Part shown: positions 37,710 through 51,136 of the stretch, piece after piece
How positions within the stretch are numbered: position 1 is the first letter of the stretch
Layout of the letters: each line of letters starts with the position of its first letter
Source of the DNA: Acidobacteriota bacterium
GTDB lineage: Bacteria > Acidobacteriota > Thermoanaerobaculia > Thermoanaerobaculales > Thermoanaerobaculaceae
Length of the DNA: 64,000 nt
Reading direction: 5' to 3'
Assembly (NCBI GenBank): GCA_004298115.1
Contig: SCRJ01000051.1
Coordinates: 1-64,000, forward strand
Program-made: the position numbers and the translations under genes
Notes under the pieces: model-generated
Seen by the model: only the letters and a program-made list of their open reading frames with translations
Told to the model about the DNA's origin: nothing
The model's database searches: none

Positions 37710-37760
37710 GCGCGGCGGCCGGCCGCGGTCGCTGCGGCCGGCATGGCCGGAGGTGCATGG

Positions 37761-38393
37761 ATGCAGCGCACGCACGTGTTCGTGGACTATTGGAACTTCC
37801 AGTTGCGGTGGAACGAGCGCGCCGGCGACGCGCGCTGCGACTGGGCGCATCTGCCCGGGGTGCTGCTCGAGAAGATGCGTTCCCTGCCGATCGCGGACGA
37901 CCTCGACTTCCAGGGGATGCGCGTGTACGCCTCGTGCGACCCCGACGATGAGAACCTCCGGCGCTGGCTCGAGAACTTCCTCGAGCGCCAGCCGGGAACC
38001 AGCGTGGTCGTCCTCGAGCGGCGGCGGCGCTTCGATCACATCCGCTGCCGCTCGTGCGGTTACGAGACGGGCGCCTGCCCGTCGTGCGGCCAGCCGCTCG
38101 TGTGGTCGGCGGAGAAGGGCGTCGAGTCGGCGCTGATCTCCGACCTGTACGAGCTGGCCTGGTCGGACGCGCTCGACGTTGCGGTCGTCGTCTCCTCGGA
38201 CAGCGACTTCGTGTTTCCCGTTGCGGGACTGCAGGGGCGCGGCGTCAAGGTGATCAACGCCGCCTGGCGCGGGGCGGGGCAGGAACTCGCCCGCGCGAGC
38301 TGGGCCACGCTCGACCTCGACGAATTGATCCCAAGCCTCGTGCGCGAGCCGAACGGCGCCGAGCGCAAAGGGGCGGCGGAAGCGCACGCCTGA
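37761..38393 (+). CDS. NYN-domain ribonuclease candidate with zinc-ribbon insertion
   Basis: A 210-residue protein. THVFVDYWNFQLRW at the start and VAVVVSSDSDFVFPVAGLQGRG near 145 are the two acidic motifs of NYN (LabA/DUF88, PIN-like) nucleases. Between them sits an insertion with two Cys pairs, CRSCGYETGACPSCG (near 95-109), a likely zinc ribbon. The ATG at 37761 is exactly 7 bases after GGAGG (37749-37753), better than the in-frame ATG at 37743. It follows gcvPB by 51 bases. RNA substrate unknown. Confidence 0.78.
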   Translation: MQRTHVFVDYWNFQLRWNERAGDARCDWAHLPGVLLEKMRSLPIADDLDFQGMRVYASCDPDDENLRRWLENFLERQPGTSVVVLERRRRFDHIRCRSCGYETGACPSCGQPLVWSAEKGVESALISDLYELAWSDALDVAVVVSSDSDFVFPVAGLQGRGVKVINAAWRGAGQELARASWATLDLDELIPSLVREPNGAERKGAAEAHA

Positions 38394-38478
38394 AGAGCGG
38401 AGGAAGCGCCGAGGGCCGGGGAGGCACCGGCGACTGCGGAGCCGAACCGCTCTCGCCTTCTCCTTGGCCTTTGCCGCT

Positions 38479-38925
38479 TTACCCTTTTTCGGTCCGTCCC
38501 TCTTGCCGAGGGGGGGCGAGGAGCAGCACCAGCGCGGCGGCGAACATCGGCAGGTCGCGCAGGACCAGCAGCCAGGCGTTGCTGACGTCCTCGGCGCTGG
38601 CCGAGAAGCAACCGCAGGCGACGTTGACTCCCCGCAGCGCGTTGACCGCGAGCGCGGTGATGAACATCGTGAGCAGGCCGGAGGCGAGCAGCGCGGCGGC
38701 CCGCCGCTTGTAGCCGGTGAGCAACCCGATCGCGACGAGCAGCTCCAGCCACGGCATGTAGATGGCCATCAGATTGATCGGACCTGCCGGCAGGATCCGG
38801 TACCCCCAGATGATCGTGACCAGCGGGCGGGGGTCGATCAGCTTGCTGCCCGCGGCGTAGAGGAAGATGCCGCCGAGGGCGACGCCGAGCGCGGTGTGCA
38901 GCCAGCGGTTGCGGAGGAACGTCAC
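38479..38925 (-). CDS. MauE/DoxX-like membrane protein
   Basis: A 148-residue protein with four hydrophobic helices. LGGIFLYAAGSKLIDPRPL and NLMAIYMPWLELLVAIGLL match DoxX/MauE, and NVACGCFS (near 110) is the Cys pair seen in MauE-like proteins, which assist disulfide or redox maturation. The GTG start overlaps the stop of the rhodanese-like gene by 4 bases, so the pair is translated together. The stop codon falls in a purine-rich stretch resembling 54780-54815. Confidence 0.75.
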   Translation of the reverse strand: MTFLRNRWLHTALGVALGGIFLYAAGSKLIDPRPLVTIIWGYRILPAGPINLMAIYMPWLELLVAIGLLTGYKRRAAALLASGLLTMFITALAVNALRGVNVACGCFSASAEDVSNAWLLVLRDLPMFAAALVLLLAPPRQEGRTEKG

Positions 38926-39398
38926 GGCGCGCCCCCTTCGACCGGCAGCCCGCCCCCCTGCCACGCCATGAAGCCGCCCATCACCACGTACGGCCGGGTC
39001 ACGCCGCGCCGGCGCAGCTCCTGGGCGAGGAGCTGCTCGACGTCGGTCTCATCGCCGTCGCCGTAGACGAAGACGGCGTCGGCGCCCCGCAGCGCGGCGA
39101 GCAAGGCCGGTGTCAGCTGGGCCTCGACGTTGGCGAACGAAATCCGCGTCGCCCCGGGGACGTGGCCGGCCGCGAACTCCGCCGCGGAGCGGGTGTCGAG
39201 GACGACCACGTGCGGCAGCGAGGTGCGGGCCGCGTCGGCGGAGGCGGCATCGATGAACTGAAAGTCCGAGCCGGCCTTCGGAGGCTCGGCGCCCTTGCCC
39301 CACCACGCGAGCCGGCGTCCGGGGACGAAGTTGGCGGCCGTCCCGAGCACGAGAACGGCGGTGAGGATGAGCGCGGCGTCGCGAACGAGTCCCCGCAT
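38922..39398 (-). CDS. Membrane-anchored rhodanese-like protein lacking the catalytic Cys
   Basis: A 158-residue protein: an N-terminal helix (about 7-26), then a rhodanese fold with VVVLDTRSAAEFAAGHVPGA and ending VVMGGFMAWQGGGLPVEGG. The active-site loop, normally a Cys after the strand (VYCxxG), reads VFVYGDGDETD, so sulfur transfer by the usual route is unlikely; a binding role is inferred. The start codon lies only 17 bases from the start of the divergent cytochrome gene. Confidence 0.82.
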   Translation of the reverse strand: MRGLVRDAALILTAVLVLGTAANFVPGRRLAWWGKGAEPPKAGSDFQFIDAASADAARTSLPHVVVLDTRSAAEFAAGHVPGATRISFANVEAQLTPALLAALRGADAVFVYGDGDETDVEQLLAQELRRRGVTRPYVVMGGFMAWQGGGLPVEGGAP

Positions 39399-39415
39399 CG
39401 GTCGGGGAGTTTATC

Positions 39416-39760
39416 ATGGCGGCGATGCGGTCGCGGGCGCGGTTGTTCGCGTGGGTCGTGGGGCTGGCGGCGCCGGTGGCGATCGGCGTGTGGGCGACGT
39501 CGGGCAAACCGCCGCGCCTCCCCGCCGATCGCGACCACGCCGTCGCGCAGGCCGAGTCGAAGTGTCTGGGGTGCCACACGCGCTCCGGCGCGCACCCGCG
39601 TCCGGCCGACCACCCGTTGCGCGACGATTGCTTCTCCTGCCATCGCGATGCGCGGGGCGAGCTGCACCCCCGGCCGGGGGCGCCGACGAGCGTGCCGGGC
39701 GGGTGGCGGGACGACCCGCTGCTCGCCGGCAGCGCCGCAACGAAAGGGGCAGGTCGATGA
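39416..39760 (+). CDS. Small dihaem c-type cytochrome, membrane-anchored or secreted
   Basis: A 114-residue protein with an N-terminal hydrophobic segment (about 9-27) and two c-haem sites, CLGCH (near 50) and CFSCH (near 72), with further His residues around them (HPRPADHP) that could be distal ligands. The pattern resembles the small NapB/doublet CXXCH repeats of multihaem cytochromes, but no family is certain. GGGGAG precedes the ATG; an ATG 9 bases later is also possible. It overlaps the next gene by 4 bases. Confidence 0.78.
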   Translation: MAAMRSRARLFAWVVGLAAPVAIGVWATSGKPPRLPADRDHAVAQAESKCLGCHTRSGAHPRPADHPLRDDCFSCHRDARGELHPRPGAPTSVPGGWRDDPLLAGSAATKGAGR

Positions 39761-40854
39761 GCGTGTGCGGATGGCGCCGAGTCCTCTCGTTCGCCGTGAC
39801 GGTCGCGGGCGCCGCCGCCGCGTGGTCGCAGACGGCTCCGGCGCCGCGCTTCCCGGGCGCCGCGACCACGGTGGCCGTGAACCGCGCCAGCGGCAAGGTC
39901 GCGGTCCTCGTCGGCGGGCAACTCCAGCTCTTCGACGACGTCCGGGCGCCGTCGCCGAGCGCGCGGCTCGAACTGCCGGGGAGCGGGCCGCGCGTGCTCG
40001 AGTTCTGCGGGCCGAACCTGCGTTACGTGACGCACGGTGTCCAGGGGATGGCGCAGGTGTTCGTGGCGATCACGGCGGACGGGCGGGAGCGCCTGGCGTG
40101 GCCGAACTCGGGGCTCTCCGAACTCTTCCCGACCCAGGACAGCCGTCTCACGCTCGACGGCAAGGGGCTGTACGGCTTCCTGCCCCTCGACCCCGCGGCG
40201 CGAGAGTACTTCGGTCTGCCGGGCGACATCCCCACCGGCGCCGGTGTCGCGGCGACGTTTCGCTTCGCAGGCGAGAAGCTGCTGGCGCGCGCGTCCGCGG
40301 CGTTCGCCGGGGTCGTCGCGCTCTCGCCCGACGACATGCTCCTGACCCTCGACGGCGGCGGGTTGATGCGGTACCGCTCGCCGGGCGGCGTCGCCTGGAA
40401 GCGGGAGGGGCGCGGCGGCGCCTGGCGGGTCGTCGATGTGGACCCCGCGGGCGGAGTGGCGGCGGCGGTCGACGGCGAGGGCGCCGTCGTGGGAATCGGG
40501 ATCGAGCGCGGCGAGCCCCGCTTCCGCGGCGCCCTGCCCGGGGCGAGGGTGCGGGATGCCCGCCTCCTTTCCGATTCCAGGCTGCTCGTGCTGCAAGTCG
40601 CGCCGGAGCGGCGGGCCGCGATCCTCGACACGACGACGATGAGGCCGGCCGGCGAGCAGCCCGCCGAGCTCTGCGCGCGGCAGGGCCTCGCCGCGGTCTA
40701 CGAGAGCTGGCTGGGGACGGCCGACTCGCTGGCGGGGCTCCTCGACGCGGGCGCGGCCGGTCACCCGGCGTTGCTCCTGCACGGCGCCGCCGGCTGGTAC
40801 CTGGTGACGCTCCGCGAGCGCCCGGCGGCCGCCTCGACAGCCGAGAAGCCGTGA
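39757..40854 (+). CDS. Secreted propeller-like protein of unknown function
   Basis: A 365-residue protein with a signal peptide (about 1-24, AAAAWSQ cleavage region) and then many short beta-strand blocks of about 40 residues (VAVNRASGKVAVLVGGQLQLF; FAGVVALSPDDMLLTLDGGGLMRY), suggesting a beta-propeller. No catalytic motif was recognised. Overlap with the cytochrome gene (ATGA) suggests a joint periplasmic role. The 303-base gap after it holds a 29-codon basic frame (40851-40940) and the hemA upstream region. Confidence 0.68.
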   Translation: MSVCGWRRVLSFAVTVAGAAAAWSQTAPAPRFPGAATTVAVNRASGKVAVLVGGQLQLFDDVRAPSPSARLELPGSGPRVLEFCGPNLRYVTHGVQGMAQVFVAITADGRERLAWPNSGLSELFPTQDSRLTLDGKGLYGFLPLDPAAREYFGLPGDIPTGAGVAATFRFAGEKLLARASAAFAGVVALSPDDMLLTLDGGGLMRYRSPGGVAWKREGRGGAWRVVDVDPAGGVAAAVDGEGAVVGIGIERGEPRFRGALPGARVRDARLLSDSRLLVLQVAPERRAAILDTTTMRPAGEQPAELCARQGLAAVYESWLGTADSLAGLLDAGAAGHPALLLHGAAGWYLVTLRERPAAASTAEKP

Positions 40855-41053
40855 GCGCCCGAACGCGGGCGGCGGCGAAGGCGGCGGCGGGGCCGGGGCG
40901 ACGGCGGCCGTCCTCCCGCGCGACGGCGATCACACTCTGACACTCCGGCCTCTCGCGGACCGGTGCGTGCCCCCGCCGCGCGGAGGGCCGCGGCGAGGCC
41001 GGGAACGCTGCTGCGGCGTCGGGGAAGCATCTCCGGAACGGGCCATGAGATCA

Positions 41054-41105
41054 TTTCGCAAGATTGCCGAAACATTGCACTTTCGTAACGAAACGCTGAC
41101 CGAAA
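41054..41105 (+). promoter_or_regulatory. TTTCG/CGAAA operator-like cluster upstream of hemA
   Basis: TTTCG-N9-CGAAA (41054-41072), TTTCG-TAA-CGAAA (41081-41093) and a further CGAAA (41101-41105), within an unusually AT-rich stretch. A possible -10 CATATGAC lies at 41115-41122. The symmetric sites suggest a regulator that controls the haem operon; no -35 stands out. Confidence 0.4.
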
Positions 41106-41157
41106 CCCGCTTCACATATGACAGTTCACTCCTCATACTTCGACTTCGGGGGGAACG

Positions 41158-42402
41158 ATGCGACGCTACGTGGTCATTGGCTGCAACCAGGCCGACGCGG
41201 GCCCGGAGGAAGTTGGACGCGCGCAAATACCGGCCGAGGCGGTGGCCGAGGTTCTCCCCGGTCTCAAGGCCGACCTTGGGGCGCAGGAGCTGGTCTACCT
41301 CGCCACCTGCCACCGCACGGAGTTCTACCTCGCGTACGACGGCCCGCTCTGCCCGGGGCGTCTGTTGCTGGCGCTGGCTTCGGCGCTGCCGCGGCGCACC
41401 GGTGGGAAGGCGTCGCTCCCGGCCCTGGAGAAGTGTCTGGCCGAGCACGAGCAGAACGCGTCCAGACACCTGTTCCGCGTCGCGGCGGCGCTGAACTCGT
41501 TGATGCCCGGCGACAACCAGATCCTCGGCCAGGTCAAGGAGGCGTTCCGGGTGGCGAGCGACGCGGGCGCCGCCGGCCCGCACCTCTCCGCGCTGTTCAC
41601 GCAGGCGTTCCGCGCCGCCAAGCGGGTGCGCACGGAGACCGGTTTGTCGCGCCATCCGGTGTCGCTGCTCTCGCTGGCGGAGCGCCGGCTCGGCAAGCGC
41701 ATGGCCGCCGCCGGCGGACCGGTGGCCGTGGTCGGCGCCGGCAGCATGGCGGCGCTGGCGGTCGAGCTCGTCCGCAAGCTCGACCCGGCGCGCGCCATCG
41801 TGGTGTTCAACCGCGGCCGCGAACGCGGCGAGGCGCTCGCGACCCGGGGCGGCGGTGCGTACCGCCCGCTCGATGCGCTTGCGGCGGCCGACGACCGCTT
41901 CGCCGCGGTGATCACGGCCGCTTCGTTGCCGGCGCCGCTGATCGGTCCCGAACTCGCCGCGCGCCTGGCGCCGGCGCTCCTCCTCGACCTCGGCATGCCG
42001 CCCAACGTCGCGCCGGGGTGCGGCGGGGTCGCCGGGATCGAGCACGTCGATCAGGTCGCGCTGCGTCTCGAGGCGGAAAGCAACCGCACGGCGCGCCACG
42101 CCGAGATCGCCCAGGCCGAGGCGATCGTCGAAGAGCAACTGCGCGAGCTGGCCTACGAGGTGATGGAGGTCGAGCTGTCGCCGGTGGCGCGCCACCTCGT
42201 CGCGGCGTTCCGCGAACTCGCGCGCAGCGAGATGACGCGCATGGTGGACGGCCGGCAGGACGTGCCGCCGGAACGGCTCGACGAAGCGGTCGACCGGTTG
42301 TCGCAACGCCTCGTGCGCGTGCCGCTGCGCGGCCTGCGCGAGGTGGCCTGGCAGCACTCCCCGGACGTGCTCAACACCTTTCTCACGGCGGTGGAGAAGT
42401 GA
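41158..42402 (+). CDS. hemA: Glutamyl-tRNA reductase
   Basis: A 414-residue enzyme reducing Glu-tRNA to glutamate-1-semialdehyde, the committed step of C5-pathway haem synthesis. The nucleophilic Cys51 is in LATCHRTEFY (most relatives have TCNRTE). LNSLMPGDNQILGQVKEAF, the NADPH site VAVVGAGSMAALAVELV and the C-terminal dimerisation helix are present. First of nine overlapping hem genes; stop overlaps hemC by 4 bases. GGGGGGAA serves as ribosome binding site. Confidence 0.96.
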   Translation: MRRYVVIGCNQADAGPEEVGRAQIPAEAVAEVLPGLKADLGAQELVYLATCHRTEFYLAYDGPLCPGRLLLALASALPRRTGGKASLPALEKCLAEHEQNASRHLFRVAAALNSLMPGDNQILGQVKEAFRVASDAGAAGPHLSALFTQAFRAAKRVRTETGLSRHPVSLLSLAERRLGKRMAAAGGPVAVVGAGSMAALAVELVRKLDPARAIVVFNRGRERGEALATRGGGAYRPLDALAAADDRFAAVITAASLPAPLIGPELAARLAPALLLDLGMPPNVAPGCGGVAGIEHVDQVALRLEAESNRTARHAEIAQAEAIVEEQLRELAYEVMEVELSPVARHLVAAFRELARSEMTRMVDGRQDVPPERLDEAVDRLSQRLVRVPLRGLREVAWQHSPDVLNTFLTAVEK

Positions 42403-43313
42403 ACCCTGCGGTGCGGATCGGAACCAGAGGCTCCGACCTGGCGCTCTGGCAGTCCCGCCGTGTGGCGGCGCTGCTGCTCGAGCTCTCCGGGGCCGCGAGC
42501 GAGCTGGTCGTCGTTCGCACCAGCGGCGACGCCGACCGTTCGCGCGCGCTGCACGAGCTTCCCGGCAGCGGATTCTTCACCCGGGAGCTGCAGGCGGCGC
42601 TCGCCGCCGGCAAGGTCGACCTCGTCGTCCACTCGCTGAAGGATCTCCCGACCGACGAGCCGGCCGGTCTCGCGGTGGGCGCGGTGCTGCTGCGCCAGGA
42701 CCCCCGCGAGCTGATGCTGGCGCGCCCGGAGGCGGTCGGCGGCGGCGGTCTCGGTCTCGCCCCCGGCACCGTCGTGGGGACCTCGTCGTTGCGCCGCGCC
42801 GGGCAGGCGTTGGCCATGCAACCCGACCTCGTGATCCGGCCGCTGCGCGGCAACCTGCCGACGCGCCTGCAGCGGGTGCGCGAGGGCGCGTTCGGCGCGA
42901 TCCTGCTCGCCTGTGCCGGCGTGGACCGTCTCGGCCTCGACCTGCAGGGGCTGGCCACGGCGCGTTTCGAGGTCGAGCAGTTCCTCCCGTCGCCCGGTCA
43001 GGGCGCCTTGGCGATCGAGGTACGCGCCGACGACGCCGCGGTCGCGAGGCTGGTCGTTCCGCTCAACGAACCCGACGTCGCCGAGGTCACCGCCTGTGAG
43101 CGCGCGGTGCTCAAGGGCCTGGGCGGCGGCTGCCACCTGCCGCTGGGCGCGCACGCCCGCCGTTGCGCCGGGGGGATCGAGTTGCTGGCCGCGCTTGCCG
43201 AGCTCGACGAGGGCGTGACCCGGTCGTCCCTCCGCCGGGTGCGGGTGGAGGGCGCCGTTCCCCAGGCCGCCGCGCGGGCCGCCCTGGCGGCGTTGAGCGG
43301 AGACCGACGGTGA
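42399..43313 (+). CDS. hemC: Porphobilinogen deaminase
   Basis: A 304-residue enzyme joining four porphobilinogens to hydroxymethylbilane. Seen: RIGTRGSDLALWQSR start, VVHSLKDLPTD, VVGTSSLRRAGQ, RPLRGNLPTRLQR and the dipyrromethane-attachment Cys in GGGCHLPLGAHA near 247. GTG start inside the hemA stop. Confidence 0.97.
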   Translation: MNPAVRIGTRGSDLALWQSRRVAALLLELSGAASELVVVRTSGDADRSRALHELPGSGFFTRELQAALAAGKVDLVVHSLKDLPTDEPAGLAVGAVLLRQDPRELMLARPEAVGGGGLGLAPGTVVGTSSLRRAGQALAMQPDLVIRPLRGNLPTRLQRVREGAFGAILLACAGVDRLGLDLQGLATARFEVEQFLPSPGQGALAIEVRADDAAVARLVVPLNEPDVAEVTACERAVLKGLGGGCHLPLGAHARRCAGGIELLAALAELDEGVTRSSLRRVRVEGAVPQAAARAALAALSGDRR

Positions 43314-44035
43314 GTCGGCGCTGGGTCCTCGCGACCCGCGGGGCCGAGGAGCTCGAGGCCCTGGCCGCCGTGCTGGAGAAACGCGGCGTCGACGTGGTGC
43401 CCCTCGCGCTGACGCGGGAGGTCCCGGTGGACGACGCGGCCGGCCGGGCGCGGGTCGAGGCGGCGCTCGGAGCCGCGGAGCTCGTCGCCTTCACCAGCAA
43501 GCGCGCGCCGCGCGCGCTGCGGCAGGCCGCTCCCGATCTGGCGGCGACGCTGGCGACCCTGCCCGCCGCCGCCGTCGGGGCGGCGACGGCGGACGCGGCA
43601 CGGCGGGAGGGTTTCGACGTCCAAATCGTCGGTGGCGGCGGCGGCGCGGCGCTGGCGGCGGCACTGGCGCCGCGCCTGCGGCCCGGCGCCGCCGTCGTGC
43701 ACCCGTGCGGGCGCGAGCGGCGGGGCGAGTTCGGCGACGCGCTCGCCGAGATCGGCGCGCGGGAGGTGGCGCTCGTGGTGTACGCCATGGAAGAGATTCC
43801 GGCGACCGAGCCCCTGTCGTTCCCGGGAGAGAGTCCGTCCGCGGTCGTGCTGACCAGCCCGCGCGCCGTGCGCGCGTACCTCGCCCGCTGCGGCGCGCGC
43901 TGGGCCGGCGTGCCGCACATCGCGATCGGCGCGACCACGGCGGCCGCCGCCGCGGCGGCCGGCGTGCGCGCGGTCGTCTCACCGCAACCGACAACCGAAA
44001 GCATCGTGGAGGAGCTATGGCAGACCTGCTCGTGA
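43310..44035 (+). CDS. hemD: Uroporphyrinogen-III synthase
   Basis: A 241-residue two-lobed protein closing hydroxymethylbilane to uroporphyrinogen III. HemD is poorly conserved; the call rests on length, the WVLATRGAEE start, LVAFTSKRAPRAL, the LTSPRAVRAYL segment with GATTAAAA near the end, and its position between hemC and hemB. GTGA overlap with hemC; overlaps hemB by 19 bases. Confidence 0.9.
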   Translation: MSRRWVLATRGAEELEALAAVLEKRGVDVVPLALTREVPVDDAAGRARVEAALGAAELVAFTSKRAPRALRQAAPDLAATLATLPAAAVGAATADAARREGFDVQIVGGGGGAALAAALAPRLRPGAAVVHPCGRERRGEFGDALAEIGAREVALVVYAMEEIPATEPLSFPGESPSAVVLTSPRAVRAYLARCGARWAGVPHIAIGATTAAAAAAAGVRAVVSPQPTTESIVEELWQTCS

Positions 44036-45003
44036 GACCCCGCCGCCTTCGCTTCAACCCTGTCGTCCGCGACCTCGTGGCCGAGGCCCGGCTGGACGCG
44101 CGCGCGTTCGTGATGCCGCACTTCGTACTCCGCAATCCGGTCGCCGCCGAGGAGATCGACGCCATGCCGGAGATCCGCCGCGAGGGGATCGACCGCCTGT
44201 CGGCGACGGTCGAGGCCGACCTCAAGCTCGGTATCCGCGCGGTGCTGCTCTTCGGCGTCCCCGGCGACGACGAACCCAAGCACCCCGACGGCCGCAGCTC
44301 GTACGCCGACGACGCGATCACCCCGCGCGCCGTCGCCGCACTCAAGAAGCGCTTCGGCAACGACCTCGTGGTGATCACCGACGTCTGCCTGTGCGCCTAC
44401 ACCGACACCGGGCACTGCGGCGTGATCGAGCACGGGCGGGTCGCCAACGATCCCTCGCTCGAGCACCTCGCGCGCCAGGCGGTGGCGCACGCCGCGGCCG
44501 GCGCGGACATCGTCGCCCCGTCCGACATGATGGACGGCCGGGTGCTGGCGATCCGCCAGGCGCTCGACGGCGCGGGTCTCGTCGACACCCCGATCATGAG
44601 CTACTCGTGCAAGTACTCCTCGGGCTACTACGGACCGTTCCGCGAGGCGGCGCACTCGGCGCCGCAGTTCGGCGACCGGCGCTCGTACCAGATGGACGCG
44701 CGCAACCGACGGGAAGCGTTGCTCGAGGCGGAGCTCGACGTCGAGGAAGGCGCCGACATCCTGATGGTCAAGCCCGGCCTCGCGTACCTCGACGTGCTGC
44801 GCGACATCAAGGAGAACTTCACGCAGCCGGTGGCGGTCTACAACGTGTCGGGGGAGTACTCGATGGTCAAGGCGGCGGCGGCGCGCGGTTGGATCGACGA
44901 GCGCACCGTCACCATGGAGAACCTGCACGCGTTCCGGCGCGCGGGCGCGGACATCGTCATCACGTACCACGCCCGCAAGGCGCTGGCCGAGGGTTGGCTG
45001 TGA
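44017..45003 (+). CDS. hemB: Delta-aminolevulinic acid dehydratase
   Basis: A 328-residue enzyme condensing two ALA to porphobilinogen. The zinc-type Cys cluster DVCLCAYTDTGHCG (near 121-134) is present, so it uses catalytic Zn rather than Mg only. Schiff-base lysines appear in CKYSSGYYGPFREA and MVKPGL. GGAGGAG precedes the ATG inside the end of hemD. Overlaps hemL by 4 bases. Confidence 0.97.
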   Translation: MADLLVRPRRLRFNPVVRDLVAEARLDARAFVMPHFVLRNPVAAEEIDAMPEIRREGIDRLSATVEADLKLGIRAVLLFGVPGDDEPKHPDGRSSYADDAITPRAVAALKKRFGNDLVVITDVCLCAYTDTGHCGVIEHGRVANDPSLEHLARQAVAHAAAGADIVAPSDMMDGRVLAIRQALDGAGLVDTPIMSYSCKYSSGYYGPFREAAHSAPQFGDRRSYQMDARNRREALLEAELDVEEGADILMVKPGLAYLDVLRDIKENFTQPVAVYNVSGEYSMVKAAAARGWIDERTVTMENLHAFRRAGADIVITYHARKALAEGWL

Positions 45004-46301
45004 CGGAGCTGGTGCTGGACCGGTCAGCGGCGCTCTACGAGCGGGCCTGCGCCGTCCTCCCCGGCGGGGTCAACTCGCCGGTGCGGGCGTTCCGCGCCGT
45101 CGGCGGCGGGCCGCTCTTCTACCGCGAGGCGGCGGGCGCGCGCTTCACCGATGCGGACGGCAACTCCTATCTCGATTACGTCATGTCGTGGGGCCCGCTG
45201 ATCCTCGGGCACGCCCATCCGGCGGTCGTCGCGGCGGTGCGAGCGGCGGCCGGGCGCGGGCTGTCGTACGGCGCGCCGTGCGCGGCGGAGGTGGAGCTCG
45301 CCGAGCGGGTCGTCGCGAGCTACCCCGGCTGCGAGATGGTGCGCTTCGTCTCCTCGGGGACCGAGGCGGTGATGTCGGCGATCCGCCTCGCCCGCGGGGC
45401 GACCGGGCGGCCGCGGGTGCTCAAGTTCGACGGCTGCTACCACGGCCACGTCGACTCGCTCCTCGTCAAGGCGGGCTCCGGCCTCGCGACGTTCGCGACG
45501 CCGAACTCGGCCGGCGTGCCCGCGGCCCTCGCCGAGCTCACGGTGGTCGTGCCCCTCGACGACGACGCGGCGCTCGAACGGGCGTTCGCCGCCCACGGCG
45601 CCGAGCTCGCCGCGGCGATCGTCGAGCCGGTGCCGGCCAACGCCGGGCTGCTCGTACAGCGCCGCGACTTCCTGCAGCATCTCGCGGACCTCGCCCGCCG
45701 CGCCGGCACGCTGCTCATCTTCGACGAGGTGATCAGCGGCTTCCGCCTCGGGCCGGGCGGCGCCGCCGCGCACTACGGGATCACCCCCGACCTGGCGACG
45801 TTCGGCAAGGTCATCGGCGGCGGCATGCCGGTGGGCGCCTACGGCGGCCGCCGCGACCTCATGGAGCAGGTTTCGCCGCTCGGCGCCGTTTACCAGGCCG
45901 GCACGCTTTCCGGGAACCCGGTGGCGATGGCGGCCGGCCTCGCGACGCTGGACGCCCTCGCCGCCGAGGACGGCTGGCGGCGTCTCGACGCGCTCGGGGC
46001 CCGGCTCGAGGCCGGGGTGCGGGCCGTGCTGGCGGGGCGGCCGGTGCCGGTCGGCTTCGTCCGCCTGGGGTCGTTGTTCTGGCTCGCGATGCAACCCGGC
46101 GAGCCGCCGCGCCGCTTCGACGCCGTCGCGTGCGAGGGCGCGCCGCGCTACGCCGCGCTGCACCGGGCGCTGCTCGAGCGCGGCGTCTACCTGGCGCCGT
46201 CGGCGTTCGAAGTCGGCTTCCTGTCGCTCGCGCACACCGCAGCCGACGTGGACGCGACGGTCGGGGCGCTCGAGACGGCGCTCGCGGAGGCGATCCGGTG
46301 A
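45000..46301 (+). CDS. hemL: Glutamate-1-semialdehyde 2,1-aminomutase
   Basis: A 433-residue class III aminotransferase fold making ALA. PLP lysine in FGKVIGGGMPVGAYGG (near 265); LPGGVNSPVRAFRAVGG at the start and FVSSGTEAVMSAIRLAR near 120 are diagnostic. GTG start overlapping the hemB stop. Together with hemA it shows the C5 route; no ALA synthase was found. Confidence 0.97.
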   Translation: MTELVLDRSAALYERACAVLPGGVNSPVRAFRAVGGGPLFYREAAGARFTDADGNSYLDYVMSWGPLILGHAHPAVVAAVRAAAGRGLSYGAPCAAEVELAERVVASYPGCEMVRFVSSGTEAVMSAIRLARGATGRPRVLKFDGCYHGHVDSLLVKAGSGLATFATPNSAGVPAALAELTVVVPLDDDAALERAFAAHGAELAAAIVEPVPANAGLLVQRRDFLQHLADLARRAGTLLIFDEVISGFRLGPGGAAAHYGITPDLATFGKVIGGGMPVGAYGGRRDLMEQVSPLGAVYQAGTLSGNPVAMAAGLATLDALAAEDGWRRLDALGARLEAGVRAVLAGRPVPVGFVRLGSLFWLAMQPGEPPRRFDAVACEGAPRYAALHRALLERGVYLAPSAFEVGFLSLAHTAADVDATVGALETALAEAIR

Positions 46302-47311
46302 GCCGGCTCGTCGCCGCCTGCCGCCGCGAGAGCGTGGACCGGCCGCCGGTCTGGATCATGCGACAGGCCGGCCGCTTCCTGCCGGAGTACCGGGCGACGC
46401 GCGCGCGGGCCGGTTCGTTCCTCGCCCTGTGCCGTACGCCCGAGCTGGCCGCGGAGGTGACGCTGCAGCCGGTGACCAGGTTCGGGTTCGACGCCGCGAT
46501 CATCTTCTCGGACATCCTGCTGCCGCTGGCGCCGATGGGGGTGGAGTTCGCGTTTCCCGACGAGGGCGGGCCGCGCGTCGAGCGTGCGCTCGCGGGGCCG
46601 GCCGACTGGGCCCGGCTCGCGCCCCCGGTTGACGGGCGCGGCACCGCGTTCGTCGCCGAGGCGATCGCCCTCGTCCGGGCCAAGCTGGCGCCCGAGGTGG
46701 CGATGATCGGCTTCTGCGGGGCGCCGTGGACCCTCGCCAGCTACCTCGTCGAGGGCGGCACCTCGCGCGACCACGCCGCGGTGCGGGCGGCGATGGCGTC
46801 GCACCCGGACGAGTTCCGCGCGCTGCTCGACGTGCTCGCCGACGCCATGGCGGCGTACCTGCGGCAGCAGGTCGCGGCCGGCGCCGGGGTGGTGCAGGTC
46901 TTCGACTCGTGGGCGATGGCGTTGTCGGCGAAGAGCTACGGCGACGTCGTCGTGCCCGCGCTCGTCCGCCTGCTGCGTCAGCTCGACGACCTGGGCGTGC
47001 CGCGCATCGTCTACGCCTCCGGCGGCCACCTCGTGCCCGCGCTGGCCGGCCTCCCGTGCGAGGCGGTGAGCGTGGACTGGCGCACGGATCTGACCGAGGC
47101 CGCGGCGGGGCTGGCGGGGAAGGCCGTGCAGGGCAACCTCGACCCGGCCGTCCTGCTGGCGCCGCCCGAGGCGGTGCGCGCCGCGACGCGCGCCATGCTC
47201 GACCGCGCCCCCGCGAACGGCTACGTCGCCAACCTCGGGCACGGCATCCTGCCGGCGACGCCGCTCGAGTCGGTCGCGGCGTTCCTCGACGTGATCAGGG
47301 GGGCGCGGTGA
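46298..47311 (+). CDS. hemE: Uroporphyrinogen decarboxylase
   Basis: A 337-residue enzyme converting uroporphyrinogen III to coproporphyrinogen III. Diagnostic segments: PVWIMRQAGRFLPEYRATR (near 17-35), FSDILLPLAPMG, GFCGAPWTLASYLVEGG and NLGHGILPATP near the end. GTG start overlapping hemL; overlaps hemN by 4 bases. Confidence 0.97.
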   Translation: MSRLVAACRRESVDRPPVWIMRQAGRFLPEYRATRARAGSFLALCRTPELAAEVTLQPVTRFGFDAAIIFSDILLPLAPMGVEFAFPDEGGPRVERALAGPADWARLAPPVDGRGTAFVAEAIALVRAKLAPEVAMIGFCGAPWTLASYLVEGGTSRDHAAVRAAMASHPDEFRALLDVLADAMAAYLRQQVAAGAGVVQVFDSWAMALSAKSYGDVVVPALVRLLRQLDDLGVPRIVYASGGHLVPALAGLPCEAVSVDWRTDLTEAAAGLAGKAVQGNLDPAVLLAPPEAVRAATRAMLDRAPANGYVANLGHGILPATPLESVAAFLDVIRGAR

Positions 47312-48720
47312 GCGGCCCCGGCGCCACGGACCCCGGCGTGGACTTCGCCGGCATCACCCCCGAGCTGCTGGCGCGCTACGACCGGCCCGGCCCGCGCTAC
47401 ACCTCGTACCCGACGGCGCCGCACTTCACCCCGAGCTTCGGGGAGACGGAGTACCGGGCGGCGCTCGCCCGCGCGGCCGCGACGCCCGACGCGCCGCTGT
47501 CGCTGTACGTGCACATCCCGTTCTGCGAGGCGCGCTGCACCTACTGCGGCTGCAGCATCGTCGTCGCCCCGCACCGCGGGCCCGAGGAGCGCTACCTCGA
47601 GGCCGTCGAGCGCGAGCTGGAGATCGTCGCCGCGAGCCTCGGCGCCCGGCGGACGTTGTCGCAGTTCCACTGGGGCGGCGGCACGCCGACGTACCTGACG
47701 CCCGCCCAGTGCGAGCGGCTCTTCGGCGCGGTCATGCGCCACTTCCGGCTCGCGCCCGGGGCCGAGGTCGCGATCGAGATCGACCCGTGCGTGACCACCG
47801 ACGAGCACCTGGCGACCTTGCGGCGGCTCGGTTTCAACCGCGTCTCGCTCGGCGCCCAGGACTTCGATCCGCGGGTGCAGGAGGCGGTGCACCGGGTGCA
47901 GCCGCTTGCGCTCACGCGCCACCAGGTCGAGCTGGCGCGCTCGCTCGGCTTCTCCTCCGTGAACATCGACCTCATCTACGGCCTGCCGTTTCAGACCGAC
48001 CGGTCCTTCAAGGTCGCGGTGGAGTCGGTGATCCGCGAGCTGGCGCCCGATCGCGTGGCGGTGTTCTCGTACGCCCACGTGCCCTGGCTCAAGCCGCACC
48101 AGAAGGCGCTGGAGAACCTGCCGATGCCGCGCGGCTGGGAGAAGTTCCGCGTCTTCGCCGCCGCGGCCGAGTCGTTCCTGGGGGCCGGTTACCGCTTCAT
48201 CGGCATGGACCACTTCGCCCGTCCCGGCGACGAGCTGGCGCGCGCCCTCGAGGCCGGGACCCTGCACCGCAACTTCATGGGCTACACCGTGCTTCCCGCC
48301 AGCGACCTGGTGGGCGTCGGCATGACCGCGATCGGGGACGTGGGCGGGGCGTACGTGCAGAACGAGAAGAACCTGGCTCGCTACGAGCGGACGCTGGCCG
48401 CCGGGGGGCTCCCGGTCGAGCGCGGGCTCCGCCGGACGGAGGAGGACGAGATGCGCCGGCGGGTGATCGAGCGCCTCATCTGCACCTTCGGGCTCGACTT
48501 CGCCTGGGTGCGGGAGCAGTTCGGGATCGACGCGCCCGTGGTGTTCGAGCGCGAGCTGGCGGCGCTCGCCGGACCGGCCGCCGACGGCCTCGTCGAGGTC
48601 GGCGCCGGCGGGGTTCGCGTCCTGCCGCGCGGCCGCGTGTTCATCCGCAACCTGTGCATGCCGTTCGATGCCTACCTCGCGGGCGACGCCGGCAAGACGG
48701 TGTACTCGCGCACGGTGTGA
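47308..48720 (+). CDS. hemN: Oxygen-independent coproporphyrinogen III dehydrogenase
   Basis: A 470-residue radical-SAM enzyme forming protoporphyrinogen IX without oxygen. The motif YVHIPFCEARCTYCGCSIVV (CxxxCxxCxC) with the extra Cys identifies true HemN rather than HemW. RYTSYPTAPHF near the start, and PWLKPHQKALENLPMP are also HemN-like. GTG start. Its presence points to the protoporphyrin rather than the coproporphyrin branch. Confidence 0.96.
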   Translation: MSGPGATDPGVDFAGITPELLARYDRPGPRYTSYPTAPHFTPSFGETEYRAALARAAATPDAPLSLYVHIPFCEARCTYCGCSIVVAPHRGPEERYLEAVERELEIVAASLGARRTLSQFHWGGGTPTYLTPAQCERLFGAVMRHFRLAPGAEVAIEIDPCVTTDEHLATLRRLGFNRVSLGAQDFDPRVQEAVHRVQPLALTRHQVELARSLGFSSVNIDLIYGLPFQTDRSFKVAVESVIRELAPDRVAVFSYAHVPWLKPHQKALENLPMPRGWEKFRVFAAAAESFLGAGYRFIGMDHFARPGDELARALEAGTLHRNFMGYTVLPASDLVGVGMTAIGDVGGAYVQNEKNLARYERTLAAGGLPVERGLRRTEEDEMRRRVIERLICTFGLDFAWVREQFGIDAPVVFERELAALAGPAADGLVEVGAGGVRVLPRGRVFIRNLCMPFDAYLAGDAGKTVYSRTV

Positions 48721-50096
48721 CGGTGGCGGCGCGCGCACCCCTCCATGACCTCGCGGTCTGCGGCGGCGGTATCTCCGGCCTGGCGCTCGCGTACCTCGCC
48801 GGCACCCGGGGGGTCGCCGACGTCGTGGTCCTGGAAGGCGCCGGCCGGCCGGGCGGGAAGATCCAGACCGAGTGGGTCGACGGCTTCTGCTGCGAGTGGG
48901 GGCCGCAGGGCTTCCTCGACAACGTGCCGGAGACGCTGGCGCTCGTGGCCGGCCTCGGCCTCGACGGCGAGCTGGTGCGCGCCGACGACGCCGCCGGCGA
49001 CCGCTTCATCGCCCGCAACGGCCGCCTGCGCAAGGTGCCGCTCTCCCCGCCGGCGTTCCTGACCTCGGACGTGCTCTCGCTGCCCGGCCGCCTGCGCGTC
49101 CTGCTCGAGCCGTTCCAGCGCCGCGGCGCACTTGAAGAGTCGGTGTTCACCTTCGCCGCGCGCCGGATCGGCCGCGAGGCCGCCGAGGTGCTGGTCGACG
49201 CGATGGTGACCGGGGTGTACGCCGGCGACCCGGCGCGGCTCTCACTCCCGGCCACCTTCCCGAAGATGCGCGCGATGGAGCGCGACTACGGCTCGCTGGT
49301 GCGGGCGATGCTGGCGCGGCGGAAGTCGGGCGGCGGCGGCCCGGCGGGCCCGGGCGGTACCCTGACCACGTTGCGGCTCGGCATGCAGCAGCTGACCGAT
49401 GCGCTGGCGAGCGCCCTCGGCGCCGGGGTGCGGCTGGGCGTTCCCGTCGAGCGGATCACGCGGGGCGCGGGCGCGTTCGCGGTGCGGCTCGGCGACGGGT
49501 CGGAGGTGGCCGCGAAACAGGTGGCCGTGGCCATGCCCCCCGGCGCCGCGGCGCGGGCGCTCGGGGAGCTGCTCCCCGAGGGCGCGGTGGCGGCGCTGCA
49601 GGGGATCCCGTACGCGAAGGTGGCGGTGGTGATGACCGGCTACCGCGCGCCGCACCCGTTCGCCCATCCGACCCGCGGCTTCGGCTTCCTCGTCCCCGGC
49701 CGCGAACGGCGGCGCATCCTCGGCTCGATCTTCTGCGACGCCACGTTCCCGGCGCAGGCGCCGGCGGGCGCGACGCTGCTGCGCACGCTTCTCGGGGGCG
49801 CGCGCGACCCGGGCGCGCTCGACCTGTCCGACGGCGAGCTGCTCGCGCTCGCGCGCCGGGAGCTCGATCACTTCCTCGGCGGCGACCCCGAGCCCGACTT
49901 CGTGCGCATCATCCGCCACGACTACGGCATCCCGCAGTACACGCTCGGCCACCTCGCCCGCCTCGACGAGATCGAGCGCGCGGCGGCGGCGATCCCCGGC
50001 CTGCACCTGCTCGGCAACGGCTTCCACGGCATCGCCGCGAACGCCTGCGTCGTCGAGGCGGAGCGGATCGCGGCGGCGGTCGCGGGGGGCGCGTGA
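48717..50096 (+). CDS. hemY: Protoporphyrinogen oxidase, FAD-dependent (HemY type)
   Basis: A 459-residue FAD amine-oxidase-fold protein. The dinucleotide motif CGGGISGLALAYLAG lies near residue 16, followed by VVLEGAGRPGGKIQT; GPQGFLDN and the C-terminal GLHLLGNGFHGIAANACVVEAE support PPOX. HemY uses oxygen, unlike the HemN upstream, so the cell appears equipped for varying oxygen. A coproporphyrinogen oxidase role is less likely with hemN adjacent. Starts at GTG 48717 within the hemN stop. Confidence 0.92.
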   Translation: MTVAARAPLHDLAVCGGGISGLALAYLAGTRGVADVVVLEGAGRPGGKIQTEWVDGFCCEWGPQGFLDNVPETLALVAGLGLDGELVRADDAAGDRFIARNGRLRKVPLSPPAFLTSDVLSLPGRLRVLLEPFQRRGALEESVFTFAARRIGREAAEVLVDAMVTGVYAGDPARLSLPATFPKMRAMERDYGSLVRAMLARRKSGGGGPAGPGGTLTTLRLGMQQLTDALASALGAGVRLGVPVERITRGAGAFAVRLGDGSEVAAKQVAVAMPPGAAARALGELLPEGAVAALQGIPYAKVAVVMTGYRAPHPFAHPTRGFGFLVPGRERRRILGSIFCDATFPAQAPAGATLLRTLLGGARDPGALDLSDGELLALARRELDHFLGGDPEPDFVRIIRHDYGIPQYTLGHLARLDEIERAAAAIPGLHLLGNGFHGIAANACVVEAERIAAAVAGGA

Positions 50097-51136
50097 GGCC
50101 GCGCTACCCGGGCTACGCCCGGCCGGACGGGGGCGGTCCGGCGCCGATCGGCGTCCTCGTCTCCAACCTCGGCACCCCGCAGGCGCCGACGGCGGCAGCG
50201 GTACGCCGCTACCTCGCGGAGTTCCTCTGGGACCCGCGCGTCGTGGAGCTGCCGCGGCCGCTGTGGTGGCTCATCCTGAACCTGGCCGTGCTGCCGTTGC
50301 GGCCGCGGCGCTCGGCGCGCCTGTACGCCAGGGTGTGGGGCCGCGACGGCTCGCCGCTCCTCGTCGCCAGCCGCGCGATCGCCGCCGGCCTGACGGCCCG
50401 CCTGCGCGAGCGCACCCCGGCGCCGGTTCACGTGGCGCTCGGGATGCGGTACGGCGAGCCCGCCGTCGGGGGCGCGCTGCGCGAGCTGGCCGCGCGCGGC
50501 TGCTCCCGGATCCTGGTGCTGCCGCTGTACCCGCAGTACTCCTCGCCGACCACGGGCTCGACGTTCGACGCGGTGGCGGCGGAACTGGCCGGATGGCGGC
50601 GGGTGCCGGAGCTGCGCACCGTCTCGTCGTACCACGACGATCCGGCGTACGTGGCGGCGCTCGCCGCGAGCATTCGCGAGGCGTGGGCCGCAGCCGGCGT
50701 CCCCGAGCGGCTGATGCTGTCGTTCCACGGCCTGCCGCAGCGTTACGTGGACGCCGGCGACCACTACCAGGAGGAGTGCCTGGCGACCGCCGGCCTGCTG
50801 CGCGCGGCGCTCGACTGGCCCCAGGAGCGCCTGGTCGTCTCCTTCCAGTCCCGGTTCGGCCGCGATCCCTGGATCCAGCCGGCCACCGACGCGACGCTGC
50901 TGCGGCTGGCGGGCGAGGGCGCCGGCCGGGTGGACGTCGTGTGCCCGGGGTTCGCCGCGGACTGCCTGGAGACGCTCGAGGAGATCGCGATCACGAACCG
51001 CGAGCGGTTCCTCGCGGCGGGCGGCGGGGAGCTGCGCTACATCCCCGCGCTCGGCGCCCGCGCCGACCACGTGGACGCCCTGGCCGCGCTCGCGGAGCGC
51101 TCCCTCGCCGGCTGGGCGCCCCCGCTCCCGGTCTGA
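50093..51136 (+). CDS. hemH: Ferrochelatase
   Basis: A 347-residue enzyme inserting iron into protoporphyrin IX. Catalytic His in LSFHGLPQRYVDAGDHY (near 205), Glu in CLETLEEI (near 300), and LVSNLGTPQAPT at the start. No C-terminal iron-sulfur tail. GTG start overlapping hemY. Last gene of the haem operon. Confidence 0.97.
   Translation: MRPRYPGYARPDGGGPAPIGVLVSNLGTPQAPTAAAVRRYLAEFLWDPRVVELPRPLWWLILNLAVLPLRPRRSARLYARVWGRDGSPLLVASRAIAAGLTARLRERTPAPVHVALGMRYGEPAVGGALRELAARGCSRILVLPLYPQYSSPTTGSTFDAVAAELAGWRRVPELRTVSSYHDDPAYVAALAASIREAWAAAGVPERLMLSFHGLPQRYVDAGDHYQEECLATAGLLRAALDWPQERLVVSFQSRFGRDPWIQPATDATLLRLAGEGAGRVDVVCPGFAADCLETLEEIAITNRERFLAAGGGELRYIPALGARADHVDALAALAERSLAGWAPPLPV

Follow-up and report, generated by a model that had tools for sequence, protein, structure and literature searches.

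The window analysed here, the whole 64,000-nucleotide stretch, belongs to a draft genome of 3.97 Mb in 203 contigs. Two genes of the locus are read from the minus strand. The first (38479..38925) encodes a MauE/DoxX-superfamily membrane protein of 148 aa with a GTG start, which scores 82.9 bits against Pfam PF07291 (cut-off 27), and the second (38922..39398) encodes a membrane-anchored rhodanese-fold protein of 158 aa, which scores 47.6 bits against Pfam PF00581 (cut-off 22.2). Facing them on the plus strand are a gene for a small, N-terminally anchored dihaem c-type cytochrome (39425..39760, with the start placed at 39416 in the first-pass annotation) and a gene for a secreted beta-propeller-like protein of 365 aa (39757..40854). 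This divergent layout is as the first-pass annotation had described it, coordinates included, and so are the 4-base overlaps within both gene pairs: the rhodanese stop and the MauE start share GTGA on the minus strand (38922-38925), and the cytochrome and propeller genes overlap at 39757-39760 on the plus strand. A search with a rhodanese profile returned 11 loci in named relatives, all of them metagenome-assembled Acidobacteria (e.g. Thermoanaerobaculaceae and Thermoanaerobaculum), and the window and all 11 of these share the rhodanese/MauE overlap. The cytochrome/propeller overlap, ATGA, is kept in the window and at three of the six other loci that have both genes.

We looked for the four genes in a family sample of 17 genomes, the window's own and 16 relatives (G001-G016). 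The MauE-rhodanese pair of the window's type is present in 13 (own, G001, G002, G005, G006, G008 and G010-G016). The cytochrome gene is present in 11 of the 17, each time divergent from and adjoining the rhodanese gene, and is missing from G013 and G015 among the 13. With the divergent order kept in 11 of 11 genomes that have a cytochrome orthologue, the conserved overlap and order are more than chance. The propeller gene occurs at the locus in 7 of the 17 genomes (own, G001, G002 at a contig edge, G005, G006, G008 and G010); 4 of the 11 cytochrome-bearing genomes lack it there, and relatives lie elsewhere in two genomes, G012 and G013, with a more distant one in G015. The three-gene core spans five genera and the propeller two. 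None of the four genes was found in G003, G004, G007 or G009; three of these also lack the adjoining NYN gene, so the genes may have been lost or may be missing from the assembly. In G004, a C-terminal NYN remnant (L186) lies behind gcvPB, with no MauE in the remaining ~390 bases fetched. The locus is a real, vertically kept divergent unit of three genes with an optional fourth.

The flanking genes gcv, NYN, sucB and lpd also keep their order. The NYN-domain protein (37743-38393) carries two CXXC pairs, and its gene is kept between gcvPB and MauE at several family loci. At the g4 loci, the unit adjoins sucB/lpd and the stretch read contains no gcv or NYN, and in the window hem genes lie next door. 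This haem-synthesis run follows the cassette at 41158-51136 and comprises, by our own labels, hemA, C, D, B, L, E, N, G and H; among the loci read through, it sits beside the cassette in the window only. A link to haem synthesis via hemA was considered and rejected, as sucB and lpd come directly after the cassette at L047 and L048. At L049 and L051, one other gene separates the cassette from sucB.

The 17-base gap reported between the two start codons (39399-39415) is correct as sequence, up to the upstream ATG at 39416. As a functional gap it is probably 26 bases (39399..39424), because the 11 aligned loci have only one start in common, the ATG at 39425, which lies 9 bases after the one at 39416. 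At the position of ATG 39416, two of the other ten loci have ATG, five have ATA and three, the g4 loci, are differently spaced; a GGGGAG lies upstream of ATG 39416 in the window. From this alignment we place the cytochrome start, with probability rather than certainty, at 39425.

Measured in this way, the gap is 24-26 bases long and centred on TANCAT at 8 of the 11 loci (g1, g3 and g5). At these 8 loci, which include the window, the start of TANCAT is 12-13 bases from the rhodanese start on one side and 12-13 bases from the cytochrome start on the other, and the A at position 2 and the T at position 6 can be read on both strands. In the window, the predicted symmetric -10-like core is TATCATG (39412..39418). 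The three g4 loci have C for T at position 6 and gaps of 17-31 bases. Bidirectional promoters are described as having a near-symmetric -10 element and two transcription starts that are typically 18 bases apart (PMC10268837). The family gaps are alike in that A and T are placed to be readable on both strands and in that the genes diverge (PMC10268837). The gap core matches the rule for a symmetric bidirectional promoter, which fits the joint control proposed in the first-pass annotation. Joint control is probable, since all 11 genomes that have both genes keep the divergent order and 8 of 11 gaps have the symmetric core; the three g4 loci without T6 count against the shared-promoter part. We propose that a single symmetric -10 element could drive both arms, such that the cytochrome would be made together with MauE and the rhodanese. 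The predicted cytochrome message would begin at the start codon or one base before it, and the predicted rhodanese leader would be ~7-8 bases. Across 119 family genes, TANNNT occurs 11-13 bases before the start in 8, against ~1.4 expected, in a count where the genes are partly orthologues and the starts come from our own gene calling; a second peak lies at 39-40. This is suggestive of a leaderless signature in the family.

In the methylamine system, MauE proteins have been linked to the formation of disulfides. In the window's family, the VACGCFS motif of MauE is invariant, with C104 and C106 present in 13 of 13 aligned rows, and we infer that its CGCF (Cys-x-Cys) motif is redox-active. No sequence relative of MauE was found in the PDB at E<=1. 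For comparison outside the window's unit, another 40 MauE loci were retrieved, 20 from the class and 20 from the phylum, picked mostly by match strength and family spread and not at random. A rhodanese adjoins MauE in 36 of the 40, and none of the 40 has the dihaem cytochrome of the window's unit within 1.5 kb. Where the rhodanese of such a pair carries a CX4C motif, the gene order and the MauE CGCF motif are the same as in the window. From these comparisons, the MauE-rhodanese pair appears to be older than the four-gene set and widespread in Acidobacteriota. No description or name for the pair was found in the open-access literature, which is weak evidence of absence.

What distinguishes the family's rhodanese is its active-site loop. 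At the catalytic Cys position there is an invariant Gly (G113) in 13 of 13 aligned family rows, none of the 13 has CX4C, and a loop of the form G..DE.D.EQLLAQ.L is conserved in place of the catalytic loop; L059 has a Cys one place before the usual catalytic position. The rhodanese fold is kept, with an AF2 model (mean pLDDT 87.3) that comprises an N-terminal helix (2-22) and a rhodanese domain, and the top Foldseek matches to this model are rhodaneses. Of the 36 MauE-adjacent rhodaneses outside the unit, 31 have CX4C: 13 of the 18 from the class and all 18 from the phylum sample. The five without it (L107-L110 and L112) form a second Cys-less clade in which MauE is followed by a DsbA-like gene. 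The product of that gene has a Thioredoxin_4/DSBA domain, from a Pfam run on two of the five loci, and its motif is CPYC in four of the five and GPYC in L109. This second clade is a parallel case in which rhodanese thiols were lost beside another redox protein.

In a 51-row MauE tree, which has a midpoint root only and several rows on long branches, the family unit is recovered as a single clade (100/100), and so is the second Cys-less group (100/99). CX4C rows surround both Cys-less clades, and the CX4C label needs three changes on the tree. Read as an order of events, this topology would place CX4C first, with the thiols lost twice. The locus is a variant of the common MauE-rhodanese pair, and its lost cysteines are of more interest than its four-gene layout.

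The cytochrome has both CXXCH motifs, H38 and H63 in 11 of 11 rows of alignment A5, and these two histidines are candidate distal haem ligands. No Pfam family scored above its cut-off for the window's cytochrome; Paired_CXXCH_1 reached 18.9 bits against 20.6, and others were lower. Among PDB sequences, the best match is 8k9e, a protein with a cytochrome c7-like domain (E 2.8e-4). The window's genome has two Cytochrom_C_asm matches, so the organism can probably attach haem. When 297 genomes of the phylum were searched with a cytochrome profile at E<=0.001, 41 had a relative; 21 of these genomes lie outside the family and have a match at E<1e-10. In the 27 loci fetched elsewhere, some on short contigs, the profiles placed no MauE or rhodanese gene nearby. 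These data point to a widespread type of small anchored cytochrome that was recruited at the locus of the window's family. Co-occurrence of the cytochrome with MauE was tried as support and set aside as uninformative, with MauE in 13 of the 21 non-family cytochrome genomes vs 139 of 297 overall. In three loci from other families (L139, L142 and L159), cytochrome relatives lie convergent to a flavoprotein that reads, from its sequence, as geranylgeranyl-reductase-like.

The first-pass annotation had proposed a four-part redox cassette and had held that the idea would fail if its halves occurred independently in related genomes. They do so both in the family and outside it. In 2 of the 13 family genomes that have it, and in the 36 of 40 MauE loci elsewhere with an adjacent rhodanese, the MauE-rhodanese pair stands without the cytochrome; cytochrome relatives stand without the pair nearby in 27 of 27 loci elsewhere. 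On this distribution we rejected a four-part system, and the stable family unit is the three-gene one of MauE-rhodanese and cytochrome. Of the single periplasmic redox function suggested for the four genes, the membrane/periplasmic redox theme is supported, and the four-part system is not.

We read the product of the fourth gene as an accessory beta-propeller, and the gene as a later add-on. Pfam has no match for the propeller protein of the window, whose AF2 model is mostly beta, with a mean pLDDT of 68.4 and weak stretches; four of seven propeller relatives have a PQQ_2/BamB-like match (best E 2.1e-6). Foldseek matches to the model are generic propellers, BamB among them. As a later accessory, the propeller may bind a substrate or a partner. 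In G013, a propeller homologue lies 6 bases behind a DsbA-like gene (L054:6908-9124). We do not retain a link between propeller and DsbA-like genes, which was seen in G013 only, while other propeller relatives have other neighbours.

The closest described systems share parts of the cassette. In methylamine utilisation, MauE-MauD has a thiol/disulfide role in enzyme maturation. That system shares with the cassette a membrane protein of the MauE family (PF07291), but the thioredoxin-like MauD, heavy chain and light chain are absent from the cassette, where the partners are instead a rhodanese-fold protein and a cytochrome. The thiosulfate:quinone oxidoreductase DoxDA has a DoxX-superfamily membrane subunit; the cassette has no DoxA-like neighbour, and its MauE scores 23.0 against DoxX in Pfam, under the cut-off of 23.6. 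DsbB and VKOR thiol oxidases resemble the job proposed here for MauE, in that electrons are taken from periplasmic thiols via a membrane protein, but they belong to a different family. The CX4C rhodanese-MauE pair of other Acidobacteriota differs from the window's in having the CX4C motif and no divergent dihaem cytochrome. SseA of M. tuberculosis is a rhodanese-type protein. In M. tuberculosis, a DoxX protein (Rv3005c), SseA and SodA are reported as a membrane oxidoreductase complex, which likewise joins a DoxX-superfamily protein to a sulfurtransferase-type partner (PMC6930017). The cassette differs from this complex in that it has no superoxide dismutase, its rhodanese is Cys-less and membrane-anchored, and a dihaem cytochrome is added.

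We tentatively favor, at somewhat short of an even chance, the view that the locus is a rewired, vertically inherited MauE-rhodanese pair in which the dihaem cytochrome stands in for the lost rhodanese thiols and exchanges electrons with MauE. The sequence itself provides the family rhodanese loop without both cysteines and the dihaem cytochrome across a gap of 17-31 bases. As MauE keeps CGCF, the rhodanese loses its thiols and the cytochrome appears, the locus is most simply read as one in which the role of periplasmic redox partner passed to the cytochrome. We hypothesize that MauE takes electrons from periplasmic thiols via its CGCF cysteines; in the ancestral unit, these electrons would have been passed through the two cysteines of the rhodanese. 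The Cys-less rhodanese would then only dock or scaffold, and the bis-His dihaem cytochrome would carry the electrons to the respiratory chain. G013 and G015 have the Cys-less rhodanese without a cytochrome at the locus, and thus Cys loss and the cytochrome are not strictly tied. A haem-coupled thiol oxidase, in which MauE passes electrons from periplasmic thiols to a dedicated bis-His dihaem cytochrome and the rhodanese, once a thiol enzyme, is now a cysteine-free docking subunit, is an unlikely reading in our estimation. The window's genome has a VKOR gene separate from the cassette, so MauE would not be its sole membrane thiol oxidase. Of the 17 family genomes, 13 have VKOR, the window's among them, and DsbB was found in none of 39 relatives searched. 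We rejected the idea of MauE as sole thiol oxidase. That VKOR and MauE are never both missing among the 17 genomes carries no weight here, since with four absences each the probability of this by chance is, by our own count, about 0.3.

The cytochrome family is found phylum-wide and usually elsewhere, and adjacency may therefore be mainly a matter of shared regulation. Under that explanation, which we rate only slightly less probable than the favored one, two unrelated envelope genes, one of which encodes a general dihaem cytochrome, share a vertically inherited promoter region without sharing a function. The 27 of 27 unlinked cytochrome loci agree with it, as does the kept order of the flanking genes, which indicates that the neighborhood is generally stable. 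However, five genera retain the divergent pair despite changes in the flanking genes, and the gap core lies at a fixed distance. Sulfur-compound oxidation would give the rhodanese a different task, the handling of sulfane sulfur, with the DoxX-like protein passing electrons to quinone and the cytochrome as a second acceptor, as in thiosulfate oxidation. The rhodanese and DoxX-superfamily names invite this explanation, and NCBIfam shows a weak resemblance to sulfur/selenium rhodaneses; however, the catalytic Cys is Gly in 13 of 13 family rows, the DoxX score is below its cut-off and no sulfur-oxidation enzyme was seen among the neighbors read, and we consider it improbable.

A mau-like set, with the propeller as heavy chain, MauE as maturation factor and the cytochrome as electron acceptor, would account for MauE family membership alongside a secreted propeller and a cytochrome. 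We regard it as very improbable, as the propeller has no Me-amine-dh_H match and is absent at 4 of 11 cytochrome loci, the cassette contains no light chain or MauD, and none of the genes at 37743-42402 fits a mau heavy chain, light chain or MauD. The genuine operon in a class relative also differs from the cassette: in L117:3698-6609, an Acidobacteriota sequence, Pfam identifies a methylamine-dehydrogenase-type operon of heavy chain, MauE, redoxin and light chain.

Proteins of the DoxX superfamily, MauE included, are common. If the haem-coupled thiol oxidase reading is true, the locus and the second Cys-less clade would together describe a modular system that retains MauE and the rhodanese scaffold but has interchangeable periplasmic redox partners. 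If the swap is functional, the two losses of the rhodanese thiols, with a DsbA-like protein alongside in one case and a dihaem cytochrome in the other, would point to MauE as a general hub from thiols to electron carriers, and the partner of MauE would be directly testable. The locus also illustrates, on a small scale, how two operons may share a single symmetric -10 element.
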